Below are positions 24,846 to 62,902 of a DNA stretch of 64,000 bases, one piece after another. The stretch covers positions 434,001-498,000 of the forward strand of contig NZ_CAAHFG010000002.1 in the NCBI RefSeq assembly GCF_900890425.1. The letters run 5' to 3'. The stretch is from Pontiella desulfatans. Lineage in GTDB: Bacteria; Verrucomicrobiota; Kiritimatiellia; Kiritimatiellales; Pontiellaceae. A model generated the notes under the pieces. That model was given only the letters and a program-made list of their open reading frames with translations. It was not told the origin of the DNA and ran no database searches. The position numbers and the translations under genes are program-made. The number at the start of each line of letters is the position of its first letter. The stretch's first letter is position 1.

Positions 24846-26855
24846 CTAGATGCGCTGGAGCACGAATCCGGTGCGCGACGGAATATAAAGCTTGATCTGG
24901 TTCCGGTCGTTTTCCCCGTCGTTGAAGGCAAAGCTTTCGTAGGTCTGTTCGCCCGGGACAATGTCGTGCCCGCCGAATGCCGGATGGTCGGTGTTCAGCA
25001 GCAACCGGTATTTCCCGGGGGTGACGTCCACCGGATAGTCGGCGAACGACTTGTTCGGGTGGAAGTTGAAGATGAAAACCAGTCCATCGCGCTCGTAGGC
25101 CATCACCTTGTCGCCTTCGTTGATGAGGCGGAAGACGACCTTTTTGTTTCCGATGATGCCGGTGTTCCGGGCCAGGTTGACCATGGCTTTGTCGAAATCG
25201 GCCAGGAAGTGGAATTTGAGGGTTTGATCGTCGCGCAGGTTCCACTGGCGGCGGGCATATTGGTACGACCAATCGTTGCCCTCGCGGGGGAAATCGATCC
25301 ATTCCGGGTGGCCGAATTCGTTGCCCATGAAGTTGAGGTAGCCGTGGCCGGCCGCGCCGAGGGTGGCTAGGCGTGCCATTTTATGGAGGGCAAGCCCGCG
25401 GTCGACGACCAGGTTTTGCGCCTCGACGTGCATGTTGTAGTACATCTCCTTATCGATGAGCTCGAAGATGAAGGTCTTGCCGCCGACCAGCGCCTGGTCG
25501 TGCGATTCCACATAGCTGATCACCTGTTCCTCCGGGCGGTGGTTGGTGAGCTCGTGGTAGAGCCCGCTCATGTTCCATTCTTCGTCCGGCGTGTCGTTGG
25601 CCAGCTTGAACCAGAGATCCGGAACGCCCATGGCCAGGCGATAGTCGAAGCCGCAGCCTCCTTCTTTTCCGGGGGCGGCGAGGCCGGGCATGCCGGAAAC
25701 ATCCTCCGCAATGGTGAAGGCCGCGGGGCGTACCTCGTGGATGAGCCGGTTCGCCAGCGCCAGGTAGGCGAGGGCGTCGACATCGACCGAACCATCGAAA
25801 TAGTTGTCGTAGCTGCCGAAGCCGGTGCCCAGGCCGCGATGGTGGTAGAGCATGGAGGTAACGCCGTCGAAACGGTAGCCATCGAACTTGAATTCATCGA
25901 GCCAGTAGCGGGCGTTCGAGAGCAGGAAGTGCAGGACTTCCGGCTTGCCATAGTCGAAGCAACGCGAATCCCACGCATCGTGGTCGCCGCGGTTGCCTTC
26001 GTGGAAATATTGGTAGAGGGTGCCATCGAAGCGGGAGAGGCCTTCCTGTTCGTTCTTGACCGCGTGCGAATGCACCAGGTCCATGATGACGGCGAGGCCG
26101 GCCTCGTGGCAGGCATCGACCAGCTCCTTCAGTTCCTCGGGGGTGCCAAAGCGCGATGAGGCGGCAAAGAAGTTGGAGACGTGGTAGCCGAAGGAGCCGT
26201 AGTAGGGGTGCTCCATGATGCCCATGAACTGGACGGTGTTGTAGCCCATCTCCACGATGCGCGGTAGGATCTTTTCCTTGTATTCCAGATAGGAACCCAC
26301 TTTGGCATCTTCCTGCGCCATGCCGATGTGCGATTCATAGACCAAGGGGGCCCCGATCGGCTTGGCCGGATCGGGGAACTTCCATTCATACGGGGTTGCC
26401 GGGTGCCAGACCTGGGCGCAGAAAACATGGGTGTCCGGATCCTGGACGGCGCGGCGGGTGTAGGCCGGCAGGCGCTCGCCTTCGCCGCCGGGCCAATACA
26501 TCTTGAGCTTGTAGAGGTTGCCGTGCTTGAGCTGATTGGCCGGCAGTTCGATTTCCCAGACGCCGTGCCCGTCGCCATAGTGCAGGGCGAATTCGTCCCG
26601 CTGTTCCCAGTTGGAAAAGTCGCCGACCAGATAGATGGCCGTGGCGTTCGGCGCCCATTCGCGGAAGATCCATTTTCCGTCGCGGAAGTGGAGGCCGTAG
26701 TATTCATGCGCATTGGCGAACGCGTCCAACGACATTTTTCCGCCGGTGAGGCGCTCTTCCACATAGCGGATATGGTCGGCGCGTTGATGGAGCTGGCCCA
26801 GGTAGGGTTCCAGCCAAGGGTCGTCGGAAAGCTTCGCGAGCTTGGGAGATCTCAT
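24846..26855 (-). CDS. glgB: 1,4-alpha-glucan branching enzyme (GH13, eukaryote-like)
   Basis: Makes alpha-1,6 branches in glycogen. The 669 residues carry a CBM48-type N-terminal domain (KWIFREWAPNATAIYLVGDFSNW), then the GH13 barrel with nucleophile Asp in DGYRFDGVTSML (about residue 323), acid/base Glu in FTIAEDVSG (about 383) and Asp in YVESHDQAL (about 450). The overall pattern, with PYYGSFGYHVSNFFA and GYLNFMGNEFGHPEW, matches the GH13_8 type of plants, fungi and some bacteria. It groups with glgA and a debranching enzyme on the same strand, so a complete glycogen cycle is encoded. Confidence 0.94.
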   Translation of the reverse strand: MRSPKLAKLSDDPWLEPYLGQLHQRADHIRYVEERLTGGKMSLDAFANAHEYYGLHFRDGKWIFREWAPNATAIYLVGDFSNWEQRDEFALHYGDGHGVWEIELPANQLKHGNLYKLKMYWPGGEGERLPAYTRRAVQDPDTHVFCAQVWHPATPYEWKFPDPAKPIGAPLVYESHIGMAQEDAKVGSYLEYKEKILPRIVEMGYNTVQFMGIMEHPYYGSFGYHVSNFFAASSRFGTPEELKELVDACHEAGLAVIMDLVHSHAVKNEQEGLSRFDGTLYQYFHEGNRGDHDAWDSRCFDYGKPEVLHFLLSNARYWLDEFKFDGYRFDGVTSMLYHHRGLGTGFGSYDNYFDGSVDVDALAYLALANRLIHEVRPAAFTIAEDVSGMPGLAAPGKEGGCGFDYRLAMGVPDLWFKLANDTPDEEWNMSGLYHELTNHRPEEQVISYVESHDQALVGGKTFIFELIDKEMYYNMHVEAQNLVVDRGLALHKMARLATLGAAGHGYLNFMGNEFGHPEWIDFPREGNDWSYQYARRQWNLRDDQTLKFHFLADFDKAMVNLARNTGIIGNKKVVFRLINEGDKVMAYERDGLVFIFNFHPNKSFADYPVDVTPGKYRLLLNTDHPAFGGHDIVPGEQTYESFAFNDGENDRNQIKLYIPSRTGFVLQRI

Positions 26856-48249: not shown

Positions 48250-49950
48250 CTACCGCACGCGGTAGACTTGCAACGTTTTGGCGGGAACGGAACGGCTTCC
48301 GGTTGGCTCCGGATTGGTGATCAGCCCGTTCGAATAGAGCAGGGTGGTGGAGGCGGGGAGAGGGGGCGGCTGTTGCGGTTGTTCGCCGGCATTGAGCACC
48401 ACCACTGCACCGCCACGCCGGTAGGCCAGTAAGCCGTTCCCGCATGGGATGACGGCGATGTCGGCATCAACCAGGTCGGGCAGCATTTTACGCAGGGCAA
48501 CCAGCTCGGACACCCGCTTGAAATGGGGATTGGCCTTGCGCGCGCCGAAGCCGCGATTGCCGGTGTTGTCGAACAGCGAGATGCGGCCGGTTTCGCTCTG
48601 CTGGTGCCGGTCGGCCTGGTTGTCGCGGAGGCCGAGTTCGGAACCGTAGTAGAGGCAGGGGATGCCTTCGGCGGTCAGCAGCACCGCAAGGGCGAGGGCG
48701 TGGTTTTGTTCGCTGACCCCGTTCACGAGGAAGCGGTTGAGACCGTCGTGGTTGCCGATGAAGTTGACGGTGTTGAGACGCACGTTCTTTGGTTCGACTT
48801 CGGAGTTCATCCGTTCAATGAACTGCCTAAGCTTGTCGGGATCGCCAAGGTTGCCCTGCCGCAACACATCGCGCACCGCCCAGGTAAACTGGAAGTTGAG
48901 CAGGGAACCGAGGTTGCCGGCATATTGGTTGATGTCCTGGATCGAGTTGCCGTACACCTCTCCGAACATGAGCAGCTTGTCGGCATCGGGGCCCAGCCGT
49001 TTGCGCAGGCGCGAAGAGAAGGCGTCCCAGAAGGCCTTGTCGACATGCTTGACCGTATCGATGCGCAGTCCGTCCACGCCAAGTTCATCGATGTAGAAAT
49101 GGTAAATGTCGACAAACTCATCGACGAGTTTATCGAAGTGCGGCGAATCCGGTTCGGTGTTGAATGCCCTCAGCGAGAAGAAGTCGCAACGCTGTTCTTC
49201 GCCATCGGTTTTTCCCAGACTGTCGGGGCTGAATCCCTTGGCCCAATAGAGTTCCATATCCTGGAAAAAACCGCTGGGTTTTCCGACGTTCCAATGCGGG
49301 TCGTCGGTCCAGCGCGCGCTCTTGAGATAGGATCCATCCGGTTTGTACGGAGGCATCCACTCTTCGGCCTTGCCGTCGTGCGAGCCGTTGCCGTCGAGGT
49401 CGTAGTAGAACAGCGGCCCGATGTGGTTGCAGACCATGTCCTGAACCACCTTGATGTTGTTCTGGTGGGCGAGGTCGATCAGATCCTTGTAATGCCGCAA
49501 CCGGCCTTCGCGCCCTTTTGCGTAGGGCGTGCCCGACCGGCTGTTTGCGCTGGTCAGATGCGGGTCGATGTCGCGGAAGTCCTGCGCCCAGTAGCCATGG
49601 TAGCCACTCTTGCTGCCGCCCAGGTCGTGGAGCGACATCCAGGCGTTGCGCACCGGCGGGGTGATCCAGATGGCGCTGATTCCAAGGTCGGTGAAATAGC
49701 CATCGACGAGCGCGTTTTCCACGCCGCGGAAATCGCCGCCGTGGTAGAGGTTGATGTTTTCCTGGGCGGGGTCGTACAGCGCGGGGTCGGAGCCGGGGGG
49801 CATGTTGTTTTCCGGATCGCCGTCATGGAAGCGGTCGGTCATCAAAAAATAGATGACGTCGTCCTTCCAGGGCCGCTCAATCCAGTCGCGCGCCGAAACA
49901 CCAACGCTCATGGCAAGGCAGAGGCAAACAACGGATTTGATTCTGTTCAT
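48250..49950 (-). CDS. Secreted GH13 alpha-amylase (last gene of the glucan operon)
   Basis: A 566-residue exported GH13 enzyme with a signal peptide (SVVCLCLAMSVGVSA). The barrel begins DDVIYFLMTDRFHDGDPENN and has calcium-binding MVCNHIG, nucleophile Asp in GVDGLRIDTVKHV (about residue 295), Glu in LMFGEVYGNS (about 330) and the NFIGNHDGLNRF motif (about 402). A short C-terminal beta domain ends the protein. It should cleave alpha-1,4-glucans outside the cytoplasm. It is the last gene of the minus-strand operon with the GH77, the MFS transporter and two other GH13 genes. Confidence 0.9.
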   Translation of the reverse strand: MNRIKSVVCLCLAMSVGVSARDWIERPWKDDVIYFLMTDRFHDGDPENNMPPGSDPALYDPAQENINLYHGGDFRGVENALVDGYFTDLGISAIWITPPVRNAWMSLHDLGGSKSGYHGYWAQDFRDIDPHLTSANSRSGTPYAKGREGRLRHYKDLIDLAHQNNIKVVQDMVCNHIGPLFYYDLDGNGSHDGKAEEWMPPYKPDGSYLKSARWTDDPHWNVGKPSGFFQDMELYWAKGFSPDSLGKTDGEEQRCDFFSLRAFNTEPDSPHFDKLVDEFVDIYHFYIDELGVDGLRIDTVKHVDKAFWDAFSSRLRKRLGPDADKLLMFGEVYGNSIQDINQYAGNLGSLLNFQFTWAVRDVLRQGNLGDPDKLRQFIERMNSEVEPKNVRLNTVNFIGNHDGLNRFLVNGVSEQNHALALAVLLTAEGIPCLYYGSELGLRDNQADRHQQSETGRISLFDNTGNRGFGARKANPHFKRVSELVALRKMLPDLVDADIAVIPCGNGLLAYRRGGAVVVLNAGEQPQQPPPLPASTTLLYSNGLITNPEPTGSRSVPAKTLQVYRVR

Positions 49951-49995: not shown

Positions 49996-52713
49996 TTAAT
50001 AATCGGAGTCTCTGCCGGCATCGCCGATCAAAGCCCGGAGCGATTGGTTAAAGCCGGTTGCTTGTTTCAATTCCTCGATACTTTGGTGCATCCTGAACCT
50101 CCACTGATGCCGTACGTTGCTGGGTTGGTTAATCTGCTCCTCGTGCGTCTCGTCCCATCGGAGGTCGCCATCCATGGCCAGTAAATCCTGAACGGGGAAC
50201 GTGGTCCACATCGCCGGCGAATGAAGGTGCTGGGCAATGATCTTCGTGCAAACCCATGGCTCGGCAAAATATGGAGCGGTCCCGTGCAGGCCCAGCTCGT
50301 TGTTGTAAAACGATTGAATGGATTCCCGGTCGGCCTCCCACCAGCCCCGGATGGTCGGCATGTCGTGTGTTGATGTCGTGCAGACCGAGAGATAAGGTGC
50401 ATCGGATGGATGGGCATATTCCACCTTCGGGTCTTTCGGCATGCGCTGGATCTCGAGGCTTAGGATGTCCAGTTGTTCCATGACGGGTGGAACGCAACCG
50501 GGAACCATGCCCAGGTCTTCGCCGCAAACCAGCATGTCGCTGGCAGACAGGATCGCCGGTAGTTTTTCCATGGCTTTGTGATGCCAGAACTCATCATGTC
50601 GTTTGTAGAAGAAGTGGATATAGAGCTGGTCGAGCTGTTGTTTCGTATGCGCATCCAACTCGGCGTAGGATGACGTTGAATGAAGCGAGATCCTTGGGTG
50701 CCACTCGTCACATCCGGTTTGAATGAACAACACGTTTGCAATGAGATCGAACAATCCATCCCGGGTCTTCCGGTTTTCGTCGGTCAGATCTTCCTCTTCG
50801 ATGCCCTTCAGGAAGTGCCGGTTTACTTTCAGTTGCGAGTCATATTCCTTTTTCATCCGGTATCCGCCGGCATCTGTTTGTTCTAGAAACGTCTTAATCA
50901 CCTCGCCGGTGGATTCACCAAACAGGTCATGCAGCAAGGGCTCGCGGATGTAGGGTGAGGCCATGCGTTCGGGATCGAAGCCAATCCCGAACCGTTCAAT
51001 TTCCCGGGTGGCCATGGGCAGGGCGGGCTTGAAATATCCCAGCACACCCTCAACGGCATCGAGCGGTATTTCCCAGATTCTGAAGAAGCCCAGGATGTGG
51101 TCGATGCGGTAGGCGTCAAAATAGGTCCCCATGTGATGCAGGCGCTTCTTCCACCATGAGAAGTCCTCTTTGGCCATGGCTTCCCAGTTGTAGGTCGGGA
51201 AGCCCCAGTTTTGCCCCTTGATGGCGAAGTCATCGGGCGGGGCCCCGGCTTGCGCGCCAAGGTTGAAGAGGTGGGGTTCCGTCCAGGCCTCAACACTGTC
51301 GGGGCTTATGCCAATCGGAATGTCGCCTTTCAGCACAATTCCATTCGCGCGCGCATGCGCAGAGACGGCGCGTAATTGTTTATCAAGATGGTATTGGATG
51401 AAATAGTGAACGGCGATGTCGTCCCAGGCTTCGGATTCCTTGCTGCATAGCTGCTCGATGGCCGCCTTGTCGTATGTGCCGTATTCCTTCCATTGCCTGA
51501 AGTCAGGACTCTTCATCTTGTCCCGGAGGTAGGCAAACGCCGCATAGGGAATCAGCCACTCCCTGTTTTTCCTGAAGAAGGCCTTGTAGTCTTTGCGCTC
51601 AAAGGTCGCATCTTTTTCCTGATCATAAATCAGTTTGTAGTACCGGGATTTGATTCGGTGAACGTCCGGGAAACTCACATGTGGTTCGGCATTGAGCTCC
51701 ATCAACCGAGCCGAAATTTCGCCCATCAATTTTTTGTCGTGCAGTGCCCCGACCTGGCGCAGGTCCATGTAAATGGGGTGGAGCGCCATGACCGAGATGG
51801 ATTTGTAGGGATAGGAATCGAGCCAGTTGTGCGATGCAACGGTTTCGTTGAGCGGGAGGAGCTGCACCATTTTCATGCCGACCTGCTTGGCCCAGTCAAT
51901 GAAGTCGATCAGGTCGCCAAAGTCGCCGATCCCGGCGCTCGCATCGCTTCTCAATGAAAACACCGGAACGGCGACTCCCGCTCCCTTCCAATTGCCCAGT
52001 GGATACCGGAAGGATTCGTCGGCTTGAATGAACAGATATTCAGGGTCCTTTTCCGGCAGGGCATCGATTCGCCGGTCGAAACCGTCTTCGATCGTTGCGA
52101 CCATCTTCTTCTGCGTATCGTAGATTCCATATTTATAGATGATGGGAAGCGAAAGGCCGGCGGCGTCGATGGAGCCGGCCCATTCGGGGAAATCATTTCC
52201 GCACGCGAGCAAAAGCGGTTTTGTTTGGTCCCAGAGGCCGAGTGCCGCCTGGTTGCCCAGCACGCACGCCTGGTAGCGAGGTCCGATACGGGGCATCGAT
52301 ATGCTGAACCGCAAGGCCTGTTTCGATTCCGAACCGGTGGCCCGGTGGCCTGCATTGGGTTTCAGCAGAACCTCTCGAAAGGCCGCGCCATACATGATCC
52401 GCTCTTCGCCCGAGGGGGAGCGCCATTGGTCGTGCGCAAAAACCACCGGCGGGGTGGGTTCCGCAACCTTGAGTTTTCTCCCGCCGCCCCATTCCCAGCG
52501 ACAGTTTCCTTGTTCATCCAAAACACCATACGTGTATTCCAATGGGGTGGCGCTTGCCGGGATGTCCAACGTAGCGGACCAGTTGCCGTCGTTGATCGGG
52601 GTTAGCCTAACGGCCTTGGAAGCGTCCCCGCTCCCCAGGGCCTTGGCCGGTCCGCCCACGCAAATGTGCTGCCCGGGAATCGTGTGGTAATGGATGCGGA
52701 AGTTGATTTTCAT
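49996..52713 (-). CDS. malQ: 4-alpha-glucanotransferase, DPE2-like (CBM20 x2 + GH77)
   Basis: A 905-residue cytoplasmic amylomaltase of the disproportionating-enzyme-2 type. Two CBM20-like starch-binding domains (about residues 1-100 and 130-235) precede the GH77 catalytic domain, which shows ASAGIGDFGDLIDFIDWA, nucleophile Asp in FDAYRIDHILGFFRIW (about 534), acid/base Glu in VCGEDLGMVPGCV (about 733) and TTSTHDMPTIRGWWE (about 781). No signal peptide is visible, so it should process imported maltodextrins. The domain layout matches Bacteroides and plant DPE2 rather than E. coli MalQ. It sits between the transporter and a GH13 gene. Confidence 0.92.
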   Translation of the reverse strand: MKINFRIHYHTIPGQHICVGGPAKALGSGDASKAVRLTPINDGNWSATLDIPASATPLEYTYGVLDEQGNCRWEWGGGRKLKVAEPTPPVVFAHDQWRSPSGEERIMYGAAFREVLLKPNAGHRATGSESKQALRFSISMPRIGPRYQACVLGNQAALGLWDQTKPLLLACGNDFPEWAGSIDAAGLSLPIIYKYGIYDTQKKMVATIEDGFDRRIDALPEKDPEYLFIQADESFRYPLGNWKGAGVAVPVFSLRSDASAGIGDFGDLIDFIDWAKQVGMKMVQLLPLNETVASHNWLDSYPYKSISVMALHPIYMDLRQVGALHDKKLMGEISARLMELNAEPHVSFPDVHRIKSRYYKLIYDQEKDATFERKDYKAFFRKNREWLIPYAAFAYLRDKMKSPDFRQWKEYGTYDKAAIEQLCSKESEAWDDIAVHYFIQYHLDKQLRAVSAHARANGIVLKGDIPIGISPDSVEAWTEPHLFNLGAQAGAPPDDFAIKGQNWGFPTYNWEAMAKEDFSWWKKRLHHMGTYFDAYRIDHILGFFRIWEIPLDAVEGVLGYFKPALPMATREIERFGIGFDPERMASPYIREPLLHDLFGESTGEVIKTFLEQTDAGGYRMKKEYDSQLKVNRHFLKGIEEEDLTDENRKTRDGLFDLIANVLFIQTGCDEWHPRISLHSTSSYAELDAHTKQQLDQLYIHFFYKRHDEFWHHKAMEKLPAILSASDMLVCGEDLGMVPGCVPPVMEQLDILSLEIQRMPKDPKVEYAHPSDAPYLSVCTTSTHDMPTIRGWWEADRESIQSFYNNELGLHGTAPYFAEPWVCTKIIAQHLHSPAMWTTFPVQDLLAMDGDLRWDETHEEQINQPSNVRHQWRFRMHQSIEELKQATGFNQSLRALIGDAGRDSDY

Positions 52714-52743: not shown

Positions 52744-53976
52744 TTACGCGGCCGGTTGTTTTGCGGCCATCCGTCTTACCACAACGATTAAAAGCGCAAC
52801 CACAACAAGAAGCACCGGACCGACCAGCATGGCGTTCGCCCGGCCAAAGTGTACGCCAAGCAACCCCGACATGCCGGTGCCGACCGGAATGCCGATCGAC
52901 CCGCACGTGATGATGAACGAGGTCGCTTGCGGACTCGCGTGCCCAATCTGGTCGAGGCCATACCCCAGAATGGCCGGGTAGATGCATGAGTTGGCCAAGC
53001 CGAGCAGCACCATGAAGAAGATGACCGGATACAGGTGGGTGAGCTTGACGAAGGTTAGGATGAATGCCCCGAACAACAACGACGACGTGATAATGTATTT
53101 ATGCGTCTGGACTTTCGGCAGAAGGAACTTGCCGAACACAAGCCGACCGAACATTTGGGACAACGCATAGGTCGTGACCAATGCGCCGACGAGCTTGATG
53201 TTGAAGCCCAGGTCCTGCTGCATGCGCGGCTGGTTCAGGTTGTTCATGATCTGCTCCACATAGACAAACAGGAAAAATGCGACGGCGGTCAGGACAAGCG
53301 GAAGCGACATGAAGCTTTCCTTTTTCCCCCGCTGCTTTTCTTCGTTTCTGGCGTTCACTTCCTTGTCGGAAATCTCGCTGATGTTCATGACCAGCAGCAT
53401 GATGACGAAGATGATGAAGAGGCCGGCAATCAGCCCGAAAACAGTGCGCCAGGACGTGGCGTCGATCACGAAACCGTTGATGATCGGGCTGATCATGAAG
53501 CCGGCGCTGAAGAAGACGTTGAGAATGGCCAGCTTCCCTTCGCCTTCGCCCTCTTCGCGCACCGTCCCCATCGTCATGTAGTAGCACGACACCAGCACGA
53601 ACCCGATCGCCATGTTGCAGATGAACGACATCGAGATATAGACCGGAAGAACGGGGAAGAGGGCAATCAGCGACGATGCGACCAGCATCATGAGACCGGC
53701 CAGCATCAGCGTGTTCTTTCCCTTGATTTTGGCGATAACCATTCCTCCGGTGGCCATGGCCAGAATCTGTCCCCACATCCCGAACGAATCATAAAAGACA
53801 ATCATCGAGGAATCCTTGCCGAAGAATTCAGACACCGGTACGGTGGTCATCCCGTATATGGCCGCCTGGAATCCGGCAAACAGGAAGGCGATGAAGGTAA
53901 TGAGTATCGCCTTGCGAATGTCGATCCGGGTTGAAAAAATCAATCTGTTTTCCTTGTTCTCGGTTTCATGGCTCAT
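52744..53976 (-). CDS. MFS sugar importer of the glucan operon
   Basis: A 410-residue major facilitator protein with 12 predicted membrane segments and a short cytoplasmic N terminus. Seen are the duplicated six-TM halves joined by a Lys/Glu-rich loop (NARNEEKQRGKKESF) and a Gly-rich FAGFQAAIYGMTTVP start. It resembles the FucP/TsgA-like sugar:H+ symporters more than the ABC maltose system. Because of its neighbours it probably imports maltose or maltodextrins, but the substrate is inferred from context only. GGAG precedes the ATG. Confidence 0.85.
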   Translation of the reverse strand: MSHETENKENRLIFSTRIDIRKAILITFIAFLFAGFQAAIYGMTTVPVSEFFGKDSSMIVFYDSFGMWGQILAMATGGMVIAKIKGKNTLMLAGLMMLVASSLIALFPVLPVYISMSFICNMAIGFVLVSCYYMTMGTVREEGEGEGKLAILNVFFSAGFMISPIINGFVIDATSWRTVFGLIAGLFIIFVIMLLVMNISEISDKEVNARNEEKQRGKKESFMSLPLVLTAVAFFLFVYVEQIMNNLNQPRMQQDLGFNIKLVGALVTTYALSQMFGRLVFGKFLLPKVQTHKYIITSSLLFGAFILTFVKLTHLYPVIFFMVLLGLANSCIYPAILGYGLDQIGHASPQATSFIITCGSIGIPVGTGMSGLLGVHFGRANAMLVGPVLLVVVALLIVVVRRMAAKQPAA

Positions 53977-54003: not shown

Positions 54004-55863
54004 TTAACGGCTGGTGCCGTGGTTGAAAACATAGACTTGCGATTCCAACGGGGCAAGCGTGGTCCGGATGGCTCCGCGCCCGTTTTCCACCACGAGGCTG
54101 CCAGGTGTGTTGCGGAAAAGGTTTTCCAGTCGATAGGTGCCATCCGGAAGGTTCCATTTTTGGATGAGCTCTTCCGGCAGGCGCAGCCCAACCTCGGCGG
54201 TTTGCGTGTGGTCGAAACTGGCCAGTACCACAACATTGGATTGGGCCGACCAGCGCGCGAAGGAGAATAGTTTTTCGCTGTAGTTTCCGGCATGGGCCAG
54301 GTTGTGCCGGTGCAGATCCATATACTCGCCCTTCAGGGCATCGCTGTTGGCACTGAAGGAGAGCAGGGTGGTGTAGTGTTGCCGAAGCGTTTTTTCCGCA
54401 TCGGTCAGCAACCCTCCATCATAGGCCCCGTGGTTGGCCCATCGGCCAAGGGTTGCGAGGCCCCAGTAGTCGAAGATGGTGGTGCGCGTTGCCTTGCCGA
54501 AACCGGCATCCTGGTCGGCCGTTTCGCCGAGTGCCTGCGCGAAGTAGAGCAACGTGGGGCCGCGCCCGACCAGCGCCGAGACGGTCATGGCCGGTCCGCC
54601 CATGGCGGCGGTGCCCGCAAAACCGGGGCTGGCAATCCGTTGCTCGTCGTGGTTTTCAAGGAAGTGCAGCATGTGCGGATCGATGTCGCCAAGCGACTCG
54701 ATGATCGGCAGCAGGTCGGATGCCGGCGCATGGCCCTGCATGATCTTTTTCATGGTGTCGTAGAAATCAACCTTGTCGTAGAGGGCATCCATCAGGCCGA
54801 GTTCGATAAAGTTGCGGTATTGTTCCCGGTTGTAGATTTCGGCCAGGCAAAAGGCATCGGGGTTCTTCATTTTGATGGAAGAATTCAAGTAGCTCCAGAA
54901 TTCAACCGGCACCATGCCGGCCATGTCGAAACGGAAACCGTCCACACCGAAGCCGAGCCAGTGGAGGGCGATGTCGCGGAACTTGATCCACGAGTCGGGA
55001 ACATCCTTTCCCTTCCAGAACCGGGCGTGTTCCCCGAATGCCGCGCCGCGCAACGGGTCTGGCAGGGCGGGGAAATCGTGCGTGCCATCGGGGCGAACGC
55101 CATAGTTGATCTTGACGGTTTCAAACCAGTCGTCCGGATTCGGTTGGGCCAGCCGCGATCCATTGCCCGTCCATTTGGCCGGCGTCTCGTCAAAGGTGCC
55201 ATCCGCCAGCAGGTGCTTTTCGCCGTTGAGCGGAACCGTGCCCTGTGGGACGCGGAAGGACTCGCCGATAATGTAGTAGAAGTTGTTGTCGCGCCGGTAG
55301 GTCTCGCTGGTGTCGTCATCGGCGCCGAAGTCAACACCGGGCCTGGTGGTGGAATGGTAGGCCCGGGCGACGTGGTTCGGGACGATGTCGATCAGCACTT
55401 TCATCCCCTGCCGGTGGGTGCGGTCCACGAGTGCCTTGAATTCCTCCAGCCGCTTGGCCGGATCTTCCGCAAGGTCGGGGTTGACGTTGTAGTAATCCTT
55501 CACCGCATAGGGTGAACCCGCGCGGCCCTTCACCACGTCCGGGTCGTCGTTGGAAATGCCGAAGGCGGTGTAGTCGCGCACAACGGCATGGTGCGGCACG
55601 CCGGTGTACCAGATGTGCGTGGTGCCGAATTCCCGGATTCCTGCCAGCGCCTCATCGGTAAAGTCGTTGAACTTGCCGACCCCGTTCTCCTCGATCGTCC
55701 CCCACGGTTTGTTGGTGGTGTTCCGGTTGCCGAACAACCGGGTGAAAACCTGGTAGACCACCACTTTGCCCTCATGGATTGGCCTGGTTTCCGCCGATGC
55801 GCAGGCAACCACGCTTCCCGCGAGAAGAACAGCCCCCAGGGGTTTGTGCCTACTGCTCCACAT
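54004..55863 (-). CDS. GH13 alpha-amylase, probable lipoprotein
   Basis: A 619-residue GH13 enzyme. The N terminus MWSSRHKPLGAVLLAGSVVAC ends in a plausible lipobox (VVAC), so it may be membrane-anchored like SusG. The barrel shows IDIVPNHVARAYH, nucleophile Asp in GVDGFRFDMAGMVP (about residue 311), Glu in AFCLAEIYNREQ (about 341) and LHFLENHDEQRIAS (about 404), and a small C-terminal beta domain. The ATG at 55863 lies inside the end of the upstream GH13 gene and overlaps it by 14 bases, which suggests coupled translation. A longer frame upstream has no signal peptide. Confidence 0.88.
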   Translation of the reverse strand: MWSSRHKPLGAVLLAGSVVACASAETRPIHEGKVVVYQVFTRLFGNRNTTNKPWGTIEENGVGKFNDFTDEALAGIREFGTTHIWYTGVPHHAVVRDYTAFGISNDDPDVVKGRAGSPYAVKDYYNVNPDLAEDPAKRLEEFKALVDRTHRQGMKVLIDIVPNHVARAYHSTTRPGVDFGADDDTSETYRRDNNFYYIIGESFRVPQGTVPLNGEKHLLADGTFDETPAKWTGNGSRLAQPNPDDWFETVKINYGVRPDGTHDFPALPDPLRGAAFGEHARFWKGKDVPDSWIKFRDIALHWLGFGVDGFRFDMAGMVPVEFWSYLNSSIKMKNPDAFCLAEIYNREQYRNFIELGLMDALYDKVDFYDTMKKIMQGHAPASDLLPIIESLGDIDPHMLHFLENHDEQRIASPGFAGTAAMGGPAMTVSALVGRGPTLLYFAQALGETADQDAGFGKATRTTIFDYWGLATLGRWANHGAYDGGLLTDAEKTLRQHYTTLLSFSANSDALKGEYMDLHRHNLAHAGNYSEKLFSFARWSAQSNVVVLASFDHTQTAEVGLRLPEELIQKWNLPDGTYRLENLFRNTPGSLVVENGRGAIRTTLAPLESQVYVFNHGTSR

Positions 55864-58519
55864 AGGATACCTGTACACGGTAGAATCTTTCATCCGGGGC
55901 AAGGCCCCCTTCATGCGTCAGGGTCAAGCTGGTTCCCTTGGCCTTCACGTTGGATTGCACGGTTGTCCATGCGCCGCCCAGCAGGTTGGTGCGCGTTTCG
56001 AGATGGTAATACCAACCCGGTGTCGCCGCACAGGACACGACCACGCTGGAGGCGATGGCCTCGACGCTGTCGATTTCCACTTCAAGCGGATCGGTCACGT
56101 CGACCAGCTTCAGGTATTGCGCTTCGTAGGGGGCCGTTGCCCAATCGCCATCGACCGTCGGAACCTTGTTCAGCGAAACGAAGAAGCCAGTGCCCTTCAG
56201 AGCGGCACCGCTCATGGACGAACCCCATAGGAAGATGCTGCGGGTGCTTTCGTCATAGGCCGCGAGGTTGACGACGTTGTATTGCCGGGCATCCTCCAGA
56301 CCAAGGAGGGGGGCGAGCCCTGCCGGGATCTTGAAGTTGTCGCTCTGGACGTTGTTGCGGTCGAGGTTGGCGAAGGCGAGCACCACATCGTTTGTGGTTG
56401 GCGAGGCATGGGCTTCCTCATATTTCGCGGTGGCGAAAATGTTTCCGTTGGAACCGTCGCCATCGATGAACCAGCGGTTCGGGCTGCGCAGGGCCGGGCT
56501 GGAAGCGCGCGCCTGCTGGATGCCCGAGTAGACCGGGAAGAGCTGGTCGTTCCCAAAGTTGGTGTCGGTCCAGATCGGCATCATGGAATTCCACCGTTTG
56601 AAGTGCGGGACGTTCTTGCCGAAGTTGGTCTCGTAGTGGTCATAGCCATAGCTGGTGGAAATGCCCAGCTCCTGGCCGGGGAAGACCATGGTGGAGCCAT
56701 CGATCATGCCGCAGGCGGCGGAGCGTACCACGCCTTCCCACGGATCCGCGAAGCTCTCCTCGTCGTGCGAGGTGTTGTTGAGCAGCACCAGCCCCTGGCC
56801 GTAGGCGGCGCGCCGATCCTCGAAGATGTTGCGGTAGTCCCCGGCATTGGAAGCGGACTTGAGCGGGAAGACAATGTTTTCGTTGAGGATGTCGAAGTGC
56901 CGGTTGGAACGGTAGGTCACCGCGCCGCCGTCGAGCGATTCGCTCATCATCACAAAGTTCCATTTATGGCTGCGGGCGACGTTGATGATGTATTCCCAGC
57001 AACGCGGCGGAAGCCCCTGGCCAAAGTCGCAGCGCAGGCCGTCGATGCCCTTTTGGTCCCACGCATAGCGCGCGGAGGCATCGCCGTCGGACGGGAGCGA
57101 GTTGCGGTTTTGCCCGGAGGGGCGCGTCTGTTCCAACCAATGGATGGCGTATTCGGCAAAGTAGTCCCAGACCCGCCGGGTGAGGTTCCGCTGCTGGCCG
57201 CCCTGGGTGAAGTCGAGCGAAGTCCAGTCCGCATCGGACCAGTCGAACCAGTCGCCCTCGTTCTTGTAGCTTTCGTATTCGGCGCCGCCGGCGCCGTCGT
57301 CGTATTCCACGAGGGCGTCGTACCGTCCGAAGAAGACATCCTTCACGTCGTTCCATTTGCCGAAGTCGTAGCGGTCGGGCCCCGCGGCAATGTTGGCGGC
57401 GGACGAAGCCCGGTTGCCATAGTTGCCGTCGGACGAAAAGAAGCGTGCATCGCGATTGCGAATCTCGTCATACGGCGACCAGCTTGCCCCATCGGGCTGG
57501 AACAGATCCACGCCCTGCTGCGCGAGCTCGACATCGAACGCGGTGTGGTTGAACGGGGCATCGAGCATGATGCCCACTTGTTCGGTGTCGGCCGAGGAAA
57601 CAAAGCTCACCCAGGCCGCCATGGATGCGGCGCGATTCTGCGCAAGGGTGTTGGTGCCATGATAATCAACGGTCATGAGTTCGTTAACCGCGAAAAAGTT
57701 TTTCACGGCATAGGGGCTGCCGGGATCGTAGGGCGCGCCCGACCCTCCCCATCCGTCGCTGGGTTCGCGCCCGTCGATTCCGTTGGGGTGGATGGGCTGG
57801 AACCAGAGCCAGTTCATGCCCAGGCTCTTCAGATAGTGCAGGTTCCAGTTTTCGGAGCTGCCCTGCGCGGCCCCGGGGGCGTCGTGGAGGTCCTCAAGGG
57901 TGGAGCGTTGCGCAAACGTGTCGCCGGATGCATCGATATTGAACACGTTGAGTTCATAAAGCCGGATATTGCGGGCATCGGACGGGGAGACAACAATGGC
58001 GTGATCGCGCAGCCCGTACCAGATCCAGTTGTTCGGGTCGTAGCTGTTTTCCTCGATGGCATCACCGCACTTGAAGCGGGCGGTCAGGCGATAGGCACCC
58101 GTTTTCGATGCGGGGATGGTGAGCTCGTATATCCCGTTCGAGTCGCCGTCGGTCATGTTGATCGGAATATAGTAATGACCGGTCGCCGGATCGGTGTCGG
58201 CGGCGGAATCGGTGATCGAGTTGCCGGGGTAGGGAACGATGCCGTCGGCATAGCCGTCGCCATCCTTGTCGGTGCGGGCGAGATCGCGCCGGTTCAGGTT
58301 CGAGAAAACTTCCACATCGGCAATGTTGCCGAACGCCATCAGGTCGAAAAGGATTTCAAGGTCCGCCGTGCTGCCGGCCACCTCGTCGATGAAGACATGG
58401 CTGGTGGTGTATTCCGCATTCTGGAAATTATAGCCGGGCGCCCGAACCTCCAGCACCCCGGCCCCCAGCAGCAGGGTCGGAACACAACAGGCAAGACCAA
58501 TGAGCATTCTTTTCATCAT
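55850..58519 (-). CDS. Large secreted GH13 amylase (first gene of the glucan operon)
   Basis: An 889-residue exported GH13 enzyme with a signal peptide (LIGLACCVPTLLLGAG). An N-terminal immunoglobulin-like region (about 15-175) precedes a barrel with calcium-site DAPFNHTAFD, nucleophile Asp in GIDGLRCDFGQGL (about residue 494), Glu in FVMMSESLDGG (about 525) and LLNNTSHDEESF (about 583). The C terminus (about 800-889) contains a RTNLLGGAWTTVQSN module common in PVC secreted proteins. The ATG at 58519 is chosen for spacing from GGAAAGGA; one at 58531 is also in frame. The shared 20-bp motif lies 88 bases upstream. Confidence 0.88.
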   Translation of the reverse strand: MMKRMLIGLACCVPTLLLGAGVLEVRAPGYNFQNAEYTTSHVFIDEVAGSTADLEILFDLMAFGNIADVEVFSNLNRRDLARTDKDGDGYADGIVPYPGNSITDSAADTDPATGHYYIPINMTDGDSNGIYELTIPASKTGAYRLTARFKCGDAIEENSYDPNNWIWYGLRDHAIVVSPSDARNIRLYELNVFNIDASGDTFAQRSTLEDLHDAPGAAQGSSENWNLHYLKSLGMNWLWFQPIHPNGIDGREPSDGWGGSGAPYDPGSPYAVKNFFAVNELMTVDYHGTNTLAQNRAASMAAWVSFVSSADTEQVGIMLDAPFNHTAFDVELAQQGVDLFQPDGASWSPYDEIRNRDARFFSSDGNYGNRASSAANIAAGPDRYDFGKWNDVKDVFFGRYDALVEYDDGAGGAEYESYKNEGDWFDWSDADWTSLDFTQGGQQRNLTRRVWDYFAEYAIHWLEQTRPSGQNRNSLPSDGDASARYAWDQKGIDGLRCDFGQGLPPRCWEYIINVARSHKWNFVMMSESLDGGAVTYRSNRHFDILNENIVFPLKSASNAGDYRNIFEDRRAAYGQGLVLLNNTSHDEESFADPWEGVVRSAACGMIDGSTMVFPGQELGISTSYGYDHYETNFGKNVPHFKRWNSMMPIWTDTNFGNDQLFPVYSGIQQARASSPALRSPNRWFIDGDGSNGNIFATAKYEEAHASPTTNDVVLAFANLDRNNVQSDNFKIPAGLAPLLGLEDARQYNVVNLAAYDESTRSIFLWGSSMSGAALKGTGFFVSLNKVPTVDGDWATAPYEAQYLKLVDVTDPLEVEIDSVEAIASSVVVSCAATPGWYYHLETRTNLLGGAWTTVQSNVKAKGTSLTLTHEGGLAPDERFYRVQVSYVEQ

Positions 58520-58606
58520 GACAGGGCACATTCCTTTCCTAGGGCATTCTCGAACGACAGGTTTGCAGTAAACCGACTGTGTGTATACCAGATGGCCGGA
58601 TTTTTC

Positions 58607-58626
58607 CTAGCTAGCCGAACGGTTAG
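58607..58626 (-). promoter_or_regulatory. Motif CTARCC-N4-GGCTAGCTAG, copy upstream of the minus-strand glucan operon
   Basis: Read toward the GH13 gene the site is CTAACC-gttc-GGCTAGCTAG. It matches the copy at 59688-59707 in 15 of 20 positions (all of GGCTAGCTAG plus five of six in the left part). Distance to the GH13 ATG is 88 bases. A regulator-binding site is the likely reading; the protein that binds it is not identified. Confidence 0.65.
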
Positions 58627-58636
58627 AAGATGGATC

Positions 58637-58680
58637 AGGGTGACATCCAAATTGACGATCGTGCAAATGGATGTCACCCT
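58637..58680. repeat. 44-bp palindrome at the 5' end of the PaaX-like gene
   Basis: Perfect 13-bp outer arms AGGGTGACATCCA (58637-58649) and complement (58668-58680), centred on CGATCG. Its right half is identical over 24 bases to that of the palindrome at 59494-59535. It overlaps the region where the regulator's promoter or first codons would lie. Confidence 0.88.
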
Positions 58681-58686
58681 CTTGAC

Positions 58687-59499
58687 ATGTGGTGCGCATT
58701 TCACCATCCCGATATTTCGTTGCCCCTGGTGCGTCGGCGCATCGGGCAGGAGCTGCTGGAAACCCTGGAGTTTCTTGGCGATATGTCGCTACACCATATG
58801 CATGCGGTCATGCGGAACGAAACCGCGCCGGACAACAAGGCGCGCAACCGTGCGATCAACCGGCTTGCCAAGCAGGGGTTGACGGTTGTTCGGCAAGGTC
58901 TGGATACGCCGTTGTTGGCAATTTCGGAGGTGGGGGAGGAATCGCTGCCGGACTATGCACGGCCGGAACGATGGTGGAACCGGAAGTGGAACGGCATTTG
59001 GTATCTCCTGGTTTTCGACGTTCCGGAAATCGACCGAGCCTACCGCAACACGCTGCGTGCCTTTCTTAAAAGGATGCGGCTCGGTTGCTTCCAGAAGAGC
59101 GTATGGATCACGCCGCACGACATCCGGCCGGAGTATGCCGATTTGGAGGAAGCCGCCGCAGTTGATGCATTCGCCTGCCTGTTCGAGGCGAAAACCGTTT
59201 TGGGGATGCCTTCGGCAAAGGTGGTTTGGGAATCGTGGGACATGGATCGGCTATACGATATCCAAAGCCGCTATTGCGGGTTTTGCACCGAAAACCTGGA
59301 TGTTCTGCGTGGTGGGGTGTCGTTCGGGCAGGAGGAGCTGCTGGGGCTGGTGTCGGTCGAGCTCGAGGCTTTCCGTAGTGCTTTCCTGTTCGATCCCCTG
59401 TTGCCGGGGGATTTGCTTCCCCGCGACTACAAGGGGCGCGAAGCCTATTCCCTGCATCGGAAGCTCGCGGAGGAAATTCGCACAAGGCTATCGGGGTGA
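58687..59499 (+). CDS. PaaX-like transcriptional regulator (Cas2-like middle domain)
   Basis: About 270 residues from the ATG at 58687. The N-terminal part is a winged helix (RIGQELLETLEFLGDMSLHH, then ARNRAINRLAKQGLTVVRQG). The middle domain (about 100-170; WNRKWNGIWYLLVFDVPE and LRAFLKRMRLGCFQKSVWITPHD) fits PaaX_M, which has a Cas2-like ferredoxin fold. The C-terminal region is helical, as in PaaX_C. It should be a repressor responding to a small ligand, perhaps one from alpha-glucan breakdown given the neighbours. The start is uncertain: an in-frame ATG at 58630 would translate the palindrome, and no Shine-Dalgarno is clear. The stop codon lies in the second palindrome. Confidence 0.8.
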   Translation: MWCAFHHPDISLPLVRRRIGQELLETLEFLGDMSLHHMHAVMRNETAPDNKARNRAINRLAKQGLTVVRQGLDTPLLAISEVGEESLPDYARPERWWNRKWNGIWYLLVFDVPEIDRAYRNTLRAFLKRMRLGCFQKSVWITPHDIRPEYADLEEAAAVDAFACLFEAKTVLGMPSAKVVWESWDMDRLYDIQSRYCGFCTENLDVLRGGVSFGQEELLGLVSVELEAFRSAFLFDPLLPGDLLPRDYKGREAYSLHRKLAEEIRTRLSG

Positions 59500-59535
59500 C
59501 ATCCATTTGCGCGATCGTGCAAATGGATGTCACCC
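59494..59535. repeat. 42-bp palindrome at the 3' end of the PaaX-like gene
   Basis: Perfect 17-bp arms GGGTGACATCCATTTGC (59494-59510) and complement (59519-59535), with a GCGATCGT centre that is itself palindromic but for the outer pair. The regulator's TGA stop is inside the left arm. It would form a very stable hairpin in RNA, but no T-run follows. Confidence 0.9.
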
Positions 59536-59687
59536 GGGGCGGGGGAGATGCCATCCCTGTGGCTGGCTGGACTGCATTCAAAACACCGGGCCAACTCGTT
59601 TGCGAGGTGTGGGGATGTTGAATGGAATGGTTCGGATGGCGGGGCGGTGCCCGAGTCGGCGCTTTGGCTGGGGGTTGTTTCCAAAAA

Positions 59688-59707
59688 CTAGCCCCCTGGC
59701 TAGCTAG
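59688..59707 (+). promoter_or_regulatory. Motif CTARCC-N4-GGCTAGCTAG, copy upstream of the plus-strand glucan genes
   Basis: CTAGCC-ccct-GGCTAGCTAG, inside a wider dyad AAACT...AGTTT (59685-59714). It lies 98 bases before the ATG of the secreted calcium-loop protein gene, in the same relative orientation as its partner at 58607-58626. The surrounding gap (59536-59804) holds no gene. Confidence 0.65.
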
Positions 59708-59804
59708 ACAGTTTTCTGCATCTCTGCCAACCTACAGCCATCAGTACGGGAAGAAATGCGGCTCGGAAGAACCAAGTTGGAAGCAAGGATGAATAAGGAG
59801 AGCG

Positions 59805-60917
59805 ATGATGAAAAATAAAATGTGGACATTGGGATTCTCGATCGTGCTGGCCGGTTCCGTGATGGCTGGCTCGGCGCACGACGACGCTTCAGACCCCGCC
59901 TATGCCGACGGGTGGCAAAACTACGACAACGGCGGGTATGGATTCGGTGCATGGGTGATGGGCTATTGGGCAACCAATGGCGTTGACCGTATTGGTATAG
60001 GTAGCGCGACCAATAACGGTGGGTGGTATGCCACCAACAACATTGATACAAGCGCAAGGTCGTTCCGTATCATGAATGCCGACGGAACCAGTGGATACAT
60101 CGAAGTGTTGCGGTATCTGAACACCGACCTGGAAGCGGGGCAAAACTTCTCGTTTGACTTTGATGTCAATTGGCGTAATGGATGGAAAGGTCTCCGGGTG
60201 CGTGGTGAGGACGACAGCACACCTATTTTTCTGATCGAAGTGGGGGGGGATGACGGCACCTTTGTCGACAATGTCGATGGTGGAAGAACTAATATTGGCA
60301 GTGCACACAGCGACGACACGCAATATCATGTTGTTCTTGAGCAAACGAGTGCCGCCGGAGGCACCTGGACTGCTACGCGTACGGGCGGCATCACAGATTC
60401 CGATACGGGAACCTATGCCGGCAAGATGAGCAGCATCCAATTGTTTAGTGACGGTGTATCCAGTGATCAATGGAGCGATATCTACTTCAATAATTTCGAT
60501 GTCTCCTACACCCCCGGCTTCGACCACTATGCCGCGTGGACGAATCAATACAACCTAAGCGGAGCCGATGCAGCCATGGATGCCGACCCGGACGGCGACA
60601 CGATGAAAAACCTGCTTGAGTTTTCAGTCGGCAGAAATCCAACCTACGATGAAGGCGGGTACCGCGCGCCTGAATTCCTCGGGAATAGCACCCAAGGTTT
60701 GGTGTATGTCTATACACGCTACAACGATGAAGTCGCCGCGGCCTACGGCCTTGACTACAGTCTGGTGCTGGCCGATAACCTTACCGCCGCATGGGAAACC
60801 AATGGGTTTGTCGAGTTGCCCCCGGTGCATTTGTGGGGCGACTTGGTGACGGTAACCAACTATGTTCCCACGACCGATCCCGCGGCATTTGCGACCTTGC
60901 GGGTTGAATCGCTGTAG
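59805..60917 (+). CDS. Secreted protein with beta-sandwich and calcium-loop tail
   Basis: A 370-residue exported protein (signal peptide LGFSIVLAGSVMAGS). The N-terminal half (about 25-240) begins DDASDPAYADGWQNYDNGGYG and is rich in Gly, Asn and Thr with regular strands, like carbohydrate-binding or adhesin sandwiches of PVC bacteria. Near residue 250 there is a dockerin-like calcium loop (DADPDGDTMKNLLEFSVGRNP), followed by a beta tail. No catalytic motif was seen. AAGGAG precedes two adjacent ATG codons. The amylase gene starts two bases after its stop, so it belongs to the glucan locus; starch binding is an inference. Confidence 0.75.
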   Translation: MMKNKMWTLGFSIVLAGSVMAGSAHDDASDPAYADGWQNYDNGGYGFGAWVMGYWATNGVDRIGIGSATNNGGWYATNNIDTSARSFRIMNADGTSGYIEVLRYLNTDLEAGQNFSFDFDVNWRNGWKGLRVRGEDDSTPIFLIEVGGDDGTFVDNVDGGRTNIGSAHSDDTQYHVVLEQTSAAGGTWTATRTGGITDSDTGTYAGKMSSIQLFSDGVSSDQWSDIYFNNFDVSYTPGFDHYAAWTNQYNLSGADAAMDADPDGDTMKNLLEFSVGRNPTYDEGGYRAPEFLGNSTQGLVYVYTRYNDEVAAAYGLDYSLVLADNLTAAWETNGFVELPPVHLWGDLVTVTNYVPTTDPAAFATLRVESL

Positions 60918-60919
60918 GA

Positions 60920-62902
60920 ATGGAAGGGGCCGTGAGGGAGCGAAGGAAGCCGGTGGCAGCCGTTGCGCTGTTGCTGGCTTTCTTCATTGGTGCCGCGCAG
61001 GGTGGCGCGGGTGTCATGATGCAGGGGTTCTACTGGGACTGCCCGGAGGACTGGTACGGCACCATGGCGGCCAAGGCCTCCGAGCTTCGCTACATGCATG
61101 GTGGATACGGCATTGACCGCATTTGGTTTCCCGCTCCCCAGAAAAGCCATGCCGGACGGCATTCCATGGGGTATGACCCGTTCGACTACTACGACCTCGG
61201 CCAATACCACCAGAAGGGCTCCACCGCCACGCGGTTTGGTACGCAGGACGAATTGAAAAGCGCCATTGCCCGCTACCGTTCGCTGGGCATCGCCTGCATG
61301 GCCGACATCGTTCTCAATCACCGGGCCGGAGGGGGGGAGGAAGCCAACCCCAACCTGGATGGAGCAACCACATGGACCGATTTCAGCGGGGTGGCGAGTG
61401 GAAGGTGCACCTGGCGCTTCGATCAGTTCCACCCTTCGAGTCGTGAGCAGGCCGATGCGGGGCCGTTCGAGGGGTTCCCCGATGTCTGCCATTCGGGCAC
61501 GGCCGGTCCTGACCTGATCCAGTGGGGGCGCTGGCTGGCCGATCCTGCCAACGCGGGCTTCGATGGCGGTTGGCGGTTGGACTACGTTAAGGGGGTGAAT
61601 CCCCCCTATCTCAAGGAATTCATCCAAGGCGCGGGCGCTGCCTACTCGGTTCTCGAATGCTGGGGCGATATCCCTTTCATTGAAAAATATCTCGCCGAGT
61701 CGGCCTGTCCTGCGGCATTCGACTTTCCCGCTTTCTACACCATGGCGCAGGTGTTCAACCACCAGGGAGACATCCGGCAACTGGTGGATCCCTCCAAGGT
61801 TTTAGCCGCGAAACATCCGGCGCAAGCCGTAACCTTTGTCGCCAACCACGATACGGACAAGGATGCGCATGTTGAATCCATTGTCGACAACACCCTGCTC
61901 GCCTATGCGTTCATCCTCACCTACCAGGGCTACCCCTGCATCTTTTGGAAGGATTACTTCAACTATGGTCTGGCGGAGGCCGGGGGAAAGCCCGGAAACG
62001 GCATCAAACCCCTCGTGTGGGTGCGTGGTGCGCTGGGCGGCGGGCAGCCCGATATCCAGCTGCTGAAGGCCGACGACGATAACCTGCTGGCCTATGGCAC
62101 GCGTTCGGGAGGGCCTCTGGCGCCCGGCTATCTCGTGGCCATCAACAACCATCCCCACGAGGTGCGCCATGCAAAAGTGTTCACCCGCAACCGTTTTCTT
62201 TGGAACAAGACCCTGGCGTGCCATGCATGGTATTCCTATGCCGAGGGGCGCAACCGGCAGCCGGAAGCGATCCGCTGCAACGATATGGGGTGCGCCATCC
62301 TGGAGGTGCCCCCGCGCGGGTATGTGGTCTATTCCGTCGCAACGGAACTTCCGGAGCCCTGGGCGCACCAAGATATTGGAAGAACGGGCGCGCAGGGGAG
62401 CGCAATGCAGGTGGACGGCGTCTATACGGTCACCGCTTCCGGCGCGGACATCGAGGGGGGCGAGGATGCCTTCCATTATGCGTCCACGCAGGTGGAGGGC
62501 GATGCCGCCCTAATCGCGCGGATTGGCCGGTTGGACCATACCCACCCATGGGCCAAGGCCGGCATCATGATCCGCGATGGGCACCATGCATCCGCGGCGA
62601 ACGCCGCCGTGTTGGCCACCCCCGCCAACGGCCTTTGTTTCCAGTGGCGCACCGCCGAAGGAGACCGCACCCATTCGGTGGTTGTCGGTGGCGTGGAAGC
62701 CCCATGCTGGGTCGGCCTCAAGCGCATGGGCAATACATTCCTGGCCCACTATTCGCAGGACGGCCGCAAATGGCGGCAGATTGGCGCCGGGCAAACCATC
62801 GGCATGGCCCCGCGCGCCACGGCCGGTCTCGCCGTAACCAGCCATGAAAACGGCACCCTCGCAACGGCCATCATCGACAACCTCTCGCTGGCCAGTCCCT
62901 AG
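60920..62902 (+). CDS. Exported GH13 alpha-amylase with C-terminal jelly-roll domain
   Basis: A 660-residue enzyme with a signal peptide (AAVALLLAFFIGAAQGGAG). The barrel carries MADIVLNHRAGGG, nucleophile Asp in GGWRLDYVKGVNP (about residue 219), Glu in YSVLECWGDIPF (about 246) and TFVANHDTDKDAH (about 309), as in plant-like and archaeal alpha-amylases of GH13. The C-terminal part (about 480-660; HASAANAAVLATPANGLCFQW and SQDGRKWRQIG) resembles DUF1349-type laminarinase-like sandwiches and may bind glucan. The ATG follows AGGA directly after the calcium-loop gene, so the two are one operon. Confidence 0.9.
   Translation: MEGAVRERRKPVAAVALLLAFFIGAAQGGAGVMMQGFYWDCPEDWYGTMAAKASELRYMHGGYGIDRIWFPAPQKSHAGRHSMGYDPFDYYDLGQYHQKGSTATRFGTQDELKSAIARYRSLGIACMADIVLNHRAGGGEEANPNLDGATTWTDFSGVASGRCTWRFDQFHPSSREQADAGPFEGFPDVCHSGTAGPDLIQWGRWLADPANAGFDGGWRLDYVKGVNPPYLKEFIQGAGAAYSVLECWGDIPFIEKYLAESACPAAFDFPAFYTMAQVFNHQGDIRQLVDPSKVLAAKHPAQAVTFVANHDTDKDAHVESIVDNTLLAYAFILTYQGYPCIFWKDYFNYGLAEAGGKPGNGIKPLVWVRGALGGGQPDIQLLKADDDNLLAYGTRSGGPLAPGYLVAINNHPHEVRHAKVFTRNRFLWNKTLACHAWYSYAEGRNRQPEAIRCNDMGCAILEVPPRGYVVYSVATELPEPWAHQDIGRTGAQGSAMQVDGVYTVTASGADIEGGEDAFHYASTQVEGDAALIARIGRLDHTHPWAKAGIMIRDGHHASAANAAVLATPANGLCFQWRTAEGDRTHSVVVGGVEAPCWVGLKRMGNTFLAHYSQDGRKWRQIGAGQTIGMAPRATAGLAVTSHENGTLATAIIDNLSLASP

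Follow-up and report, generated by a model that had tools for sequence, protein, structure and literature searches.

A 20-bp motif in the genome of Pontiella desulfatans is very probably a real promoter-operator of an alpha-glucan regulon. As judged from sequence comparison, the predicted controller of this regulon is most likely the NarL-type two-component pair encoded next to the third of its sites (site C), an assignment that we consider probable. Two copies of the motif lie in the window, the whole stretch of 64,000 nucleotides analyzed here, which corresponds to C2:434001-498000 of the source genome (G000; 8,658,305 bases, 6 contigs). The copies and the genes behind them are as follows.

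58607-58626, minus strand: motif copy A (CTAACCGTTCGGCTAGCTAG), a 16-bp inverted repeat (58611-58626), C and the start of a -35 element
59688-59707, plus strand: motif copy B (CTAGCCCCCTGGCTAGCTAG), a 16-bp inverted repeat (59688-59703), C and the start of a -35 element
55850-58519, minus strand: GH13-like secreted protein, first gene of the minus-strand operon (open reading frame opens at 58531)
54004-55914, minus strand: GH13 enzyme, 636 aa (PF00128)
52744-53976, minus strand: MFS transporter (PF07690)
49996-52713, minus strand: GH77 4-alpha-glucanotransferase with CBM20
48250-49950, minus strand: GH13 enzyme, 566 aa, last gene of the presumed operon
59805-60917, plus strand: secreted protein, 370 aa, no Pfam match
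60920-62902, plus strand: GH13 alpha-amylase, 660 aa (PF00128)

The positions, strands and sequences of both copies were confirmed, as was the agreement between them at 15 of 20 positions that a first-pass annotation of this DNA had reported. Copy A lies 88 bases upstream of the minus-strand ATG at 58519 and copy B 98 bases upstream of the plus-strand ATG at 59805, each pointing toward its gene. The tetranucleotide CTAG is scarce in the window (33 observed versus 75 expected), and 5 of the 33 occurrences fall inside the two copies. When up to 3 mismatches were allowed, the window contained 3 matches, one of them the palindromic reverse of copy B, while none of 100 shuffles reached 3 (shuffle mean 0.30). 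The product of the first minus-strand gene (55850-58519) had no Pfam match of its own, and a PDB sequence search with it gave no match; its orthologue in G004 (59% identical) matches PF00128 with an E value of 6.1e-05. A gene similar to the first plus-strand gene (59805-60917) follows the equivalent site in G016.

To cover the complete genome, as the annotation had proposed, we searched for the 20-mer with up to 2 mismatches and obtained 4 places, compared with 27 for the backwards control. The palindromic core CTARCC-N4-GGYTAG without mismatch occurs at exactly 3 sites in 8.66 Mb, namely copies A and B and one further site.

C2:1159321-1159336: site C, the third exact core, upstream of a very large GH13 gene and pointing toward it

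All three exact core sites of this genome precede GH13 units. The target of site C is an open frame of 2819 aa (C2, left of 1159300), the first 1764 aa of which match PF00128 at 2e-14. Allowing one mismatch in the core added 8 sites, 5 within open reading frames and 3 intergenic, none of which adjoins a gene recognized as an alpha-glucan gene; the core at up to 1 mismatch thus gave 11 matches versus 187 per strand for the backwards control. The clustering of sites before glucan genes that the annotation had proposed to look for was borne out, with one difference in detail: the GH13 units at A, B and C carry a site, whereas the motif search of the window placed none at the GH13 matches near 26055 and 32347, which are possibly glycogen enzymes.

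The GH13 proteins behind site C (L028) and behind its counterpart in G016 (L078) are unusually long, with frames of about 2820 aa.

We then used a slightly widened pattern, CTANCC-N4-GGCYAGCTNG, without mismatch in 43 genomes of the order. It gave 16 sites in five genomes (G000, 3; G004, 5; G016, 2; G009, 1; G037, 5) and none in the other 38. All 16 of these directly computed sites lie upstream of alpha-glucan genes or of genes in the same clusters, while the reversed control gave 26 scattered sites in 16 genomes. A search of 97 relatives with CTARCC-N4-GGCTAGCTNG at up to 1 mismatch yielded 19 rows in 7 genomes, of which 16 are regulon sites; two rows in G008 and one in G055, a match at the edge of a 1388-aa open reading frame, were not counted. 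A loose 2-mismatch search of 8 chosen genomes was uninformative: G000 gave 67 and 77 matches versus 190 and 188 for the reversed control, and nine 1-mismatch matches were among those listed for G000.

Adding three slightly deviating sites (G016_3, G037_5, G037_7) to the 16 resulted in a set of 19, every one of which points at a gene. The first genes encode GH13-type and GH57 proteins, an X25 pullulanase-domain protein and small secreted proteins, as well as amylo-1,6-glucosidase-like proteins followed by GH31 (one of the two below the Pfam cut-off) and, at one site, a TSP3-repeat protein followed by GH13/CBM53. In G037, the gene behind one site encodes a secretin, and those behind two others encode small secreted proteins. 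This genome belongs to another family of the order; sites such as copy A are identical across the families, while their flanks differ. G016 has the same two units in divergent arrangement, their motifs 180 bp apart. True sites scored 31-42 bits with a position-weight matrix that had been built from 18 of the very sites scored; an extra G037 site, the empty loci and the pattern searches are independent of this training. Loci around GH13 homologues (45-72% identity) in 8 genomes lacking the candidate kinase described below contained no site of at least 11 bits. Since placement before alpha-glucan genes holds genome-wide and order-wide, the regulon idea of the first-pass annotation stands, with two refinements that concern the composite nature of the motif and the regulator.

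For the G037 secretin gene with its site (L082:2721-4244), a second secretin gene that follows suggests that an export channel is controlled in the same way.

Chance resemblance or a dispersed mobile repeat could also bring two such copies together, as CTAG-rich words can recur and a different dispersed palindrome lies close by. No exact copies occur away from these gene clusters in the 43 genomes, however, the flanks of the sites are unrelated beyond the promoter, and the rough chance that all three sites of the source genome precede GH13 units is about 3e-13. We regard this explanation as extremely improbable.

Comparison of the 19 sites revealed that the 20-mer is a composite. It consists of a 16-bp inverted repeat, then C, then a predicted -35 element (TAGRCA) that overlaps the last three bases of the 20-mer. 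Ten positions are invariant (C1, A3, C5, C6, G11, G12, A15, G16, C17, T18), and the repeat CTAnCC-N4-GGCTAG can be read in the 19 sites as 7-2-7, that is, as two heptamers with a 2-bp spacing. Downstream of the motif follows R-C-A, with C in 16 and A in 14 of the 19 sites, and the resulting T18-A19-G20-R-C-A matches the -35 consensus TTGACA at 3 to 5 of 6 positions. The motif had been taken as a regulatory site as a whole; the inverted repeat bears this out, but its right end, rich in CTAG, belongs in part to the predicted -35 element and is not operator alone. The promoter elements predicted for the two copies in the window are as follows.

58604-58609, minus strand: predicted -35 element TAGGAA, its first three bases shared with copy A
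58582-58587, minus strand: predicted -10 element TATACA, 16-bp spacer
59705-59710, plus strand: predicted -35 element TAGACA
59728-59733, plus strand: predicted weak -10 element CAACCT, 17-bp spacer

A -10-like hexamer peaks at +21 over the 19 sites, with G at +19 and A at +22 in 14 sites each. With all 19 sites, none of 2000 shuffles and 1 of 5000 matched this peak, the shuffles ignoring relatedness; with one site per target gene, 1334 of 5000 or 35 of 5000 did so, depending on the orthologue kept. As the one-site-per-target shuffles are much weaker, we grade the -10 signal as moderate. In sites A (TATACA) and C (TATTAT) the -10 is one base nearer and fits better at +20. The predicted -10 is 32 bp from the palindrome centre in sites with a 17-bp spacer, and this placement may suit class II activation (-41 to -45), for which the -10 peak is strong with 19 sites and weak with one per target.

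The repeat could also fold in RNA as a 6-bp stem with a 4-base loop, and the motif would then be a leader or riboswitch-like hairpin rather than a DNA operator. Yet the two bases of pair 4-13 do not match in 16 of the 19 sites, and no compensatory change is found at any pair, which favours a DNA element. In addition, no Rfam match was found in window positions 58200-60200, and the repeat lies upstream of the predicted -10. An RNA function is most improbable.

Between copies A and B lies a further gene.

58687-59499: PaaX-like gene (PF20803, PF08223; open reading frame opens at 58630)

By its position, and by that alone, this gene might encode a local regulator that binds both copies. It is absent, however, from the equivalent intergenic region of G016, which has both sites; G004 has five exact sites and no PaaX_M match, and G037 has five exact sites and a PaaX_M match of Cas2 size only. 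A PaaX-family gene is thus not found wherever the operator occurs, and the eight other PaaX-like genes of the source genome sit elsewhere. We rejected PaaX control of the operon, which has very little probability.

In total, the source genome carries nine PaaX-like genes and one Cas2-like match, more than most relatives have, and one of these genes (L036, G000:C1:4199478-4199723) has an in-frame TAG and may be a pseudogene. Window positions 58637-58680 and 59494-59535, like further intergenic loci (L039-L045), carry a dispersed palindrome about 40 bp long (GGTGACATCCATTTGCACGATCGTGCAAATGGATGTCACC and variants); its half-site was found at 13 places genome-wide versus 0 for the backwards control. 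In the window, one copy stands on either side of the PaaX-like gene, and the resulting block of about 900 bp separates the two alpha-glucan promoters; the equivalent G016 region is without it. At the loci of the other eight PaaX-like genes, no such palindrome was found within 2 mismatches of the half-site.

The candidate regulator is encoded divergently from site C. A kinase of about 1060 aa (PA14, HisKA_3, HATPase_c; PF07730 and PF02518) is followed by a 211-aa receiver-GerE regulator at about C2 1,162,553-1,163,185, and the two open reading frames overlap by 4 bases. The Pfam domains of the regulator (PF00072, 7.1e-26; PF00196, 3e-18) give a NarL/FixJ-type architecture, and its nearest solved relatives are VraR, DevR and NarL. 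The source genome's regulator shares 88% identity, DNA-binding domain included, with its counterparts in G016 and G037. A Foldseek search with a predicted model of the kinase, which is of fair quality (mean pLDDT 73.6, pTM 0.38), showed that its core resembles DesK and VraS. The model supports a DesK-like core joined to a long beta-rich outer part, and Foldseek matches to p204 HIN domains weakly suggest OB-like modules.

In three genomes (G000, G016, G004), the motif ahead of the large GH13 gene has the kinase gene as its neighbour. Orthologues of the kinase with at least 58% identity in the best segment were found in G000, G004 (two), G016 and G037 only, among the 43 as well as the 97 genomes, a count that omits a 39% paralogue in G004 and matches of 31-33% in G014 and G048. 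These four genomes are the four with 0-mismatch sites in the search of 97 relatives. The co-occurrence of kinase and motif, computed directly with a hypergeometric test that ignores relatedness, has a probability of 2.9e-7, or 4e-5 with five motif genomes; it might also arise if the whole locus moves as a unit. More distant kinases (at most 53% identity, 8 loci) had no motif site nearby, the best score being 13.3 bits (L162, after the regulator gene).

A palindrome suits many dimeric regulators, and G009 has one site although the kinase was not found in its 59% complete assembly. The motif might therefore be a real alpha-glucan operator bound by another protein, for example a LacI-type repressor encoded elsewhere; the two-component pair would then be a mere neighbour. 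Against this, the kinase tracks the sites in all four of the best genomes, no further regulator gene was recognized in the G004 and G016 clusters by reading of open reading frames (with Pfam for part of them), and abutment to the -35 element suits an activator better than a repressor. Binding by another regulator appears rather unlikely to us.

The model that we infer for the binding protein, the transcription start, the signal and activation rather than repression combines operator and promoter with a candidate two-component activator and class II activation, and taken as a whole it is reasonably likely. The left 16 bp (CTAnCC-N4-GGCTAG) would serve as the inverted-repeat binding site of a dimeric activator, the last motif bases would merge into the -35 (C-TAGRCA), and a weak extended -10 would follow about 17 bp further on. 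The activator would be centred near -44.5, against RNA polymerase. It would be the candidate NarL/FixJ-family response regulator, and its partner the membrane HisKA_3 kinase, whose large outer part is predicted to contain the PA14 domain and several beta-rich modules. An alpha-glucan or maltodextrin sensed outside would lead the kinase to phosphorylate the regulator, which might then activate the three GH13/GH77/transporter units. P. desulfatans is described as growing on maltose and not on starch or pullulan (available text of PMC7356697), and its growth range thus does not fix the natural inducer.

MalT in enterobacteria and SusR in Bacteroides are known to control dispersed alpha-glucan operons positively in response to an inducer; neither is known to be a NarL/FixJ two-component regulator, and their sites differ. 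LuxR-type activators share the GerE-type DNA-binding domain with the candidate regulator, which, unlike LuxR, has a receiver domain and a partner kinase and no acyl-homoserine-lactone domain. The motif also resembles the lux box, described in the accessible part of the source as a 20-bp imperfect dyad 42.5 nucleotides upstream of the start (PMC7585371).

A close likeness in layout is to the 7-2-7 sites of E. coli NarL (ogt, napF and yeaR promoters) in the 16-bp repeat, the NarL/FixJ-type regulator and the 32-bp geometry. As far as the available sections report, NarL recognizes two inverted heptamers lying 2 bp apart, and in ogt1052 a single NarL site at -44.5, 32 bp from the -10, suffices for activation (PMC9314961, PMC4549865); this promoter is active and poorly coupled to nitrate (PMC9314961). 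Unlike in the NarL system, the half-site is CTAnCC and not the NarL heptamer, the targets degrade alpha-glucans, and the candidate sensor is a large PA14-bearing kinase and not a nitrate sensor. The layout would thus be that of a NarL-type class II promoter, with putative phosphorylation-dependent binding and target control. Pontiella agarivorans has the same kind of kinase (PF07730, PF02518) and regulator (PF00072) near sulfated-polysaccharide genes, but the accessible text gives no operator, promoter or target set for these pairs (PMC10880615).

Our literature search found no alpha-glucan regulator of the NarL-type two-component kind, no described regulon for polysaccharide use in Kiritimatiellae and no record there of a SusR- or MalT-like regulator. 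The regulon is new, while its regulatory layout is of a known type (NarL/FixJ two-component). It provides a concrete operator, a promoter layout, a target list and a candidate regulator for polysaccharide use in Kiritimatiellae, a group in which 540 and 514 carbohydrate-active enzymes are given for two Pontiella strains in the available text of PMC7356697. A defined regulon makes it possible to study if these genes are inducible and which signal induces them, and the operator can be used to find further members without homology. A broader reading, which we put forward tentatively at somewhat below an even chance, is that Kiritimatiellae have a two-component system dedicated to sensing alpha-glucans outside the cell. 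Its kinase, single-span and PA14/beta-rich, and its NarL-like activator would act through the CTAnCC-N4-GGCTAG operator fused to a -35 element and control secreted amylases, transport and, in the G037 lineage, a secretin. The system would be common to two families of the order and, if this is true, would play the part of SusR or MalT in a group for which the literature search found none.

The two uncounted rows in G008 are one palindrome read on both strands, and we rejected it as a regulon site: it lies beside PEPCK with no glucan gene downstream and is a 1-mismatch match to the pattern used for the 97 relatives. At L079:8184-8207, this perfect CTAGCC-N4-GGCTAG stands upstream of a different pair of HisKA_3 kinase and GerE regulator, and it may be a related operator or a chance occurrence.
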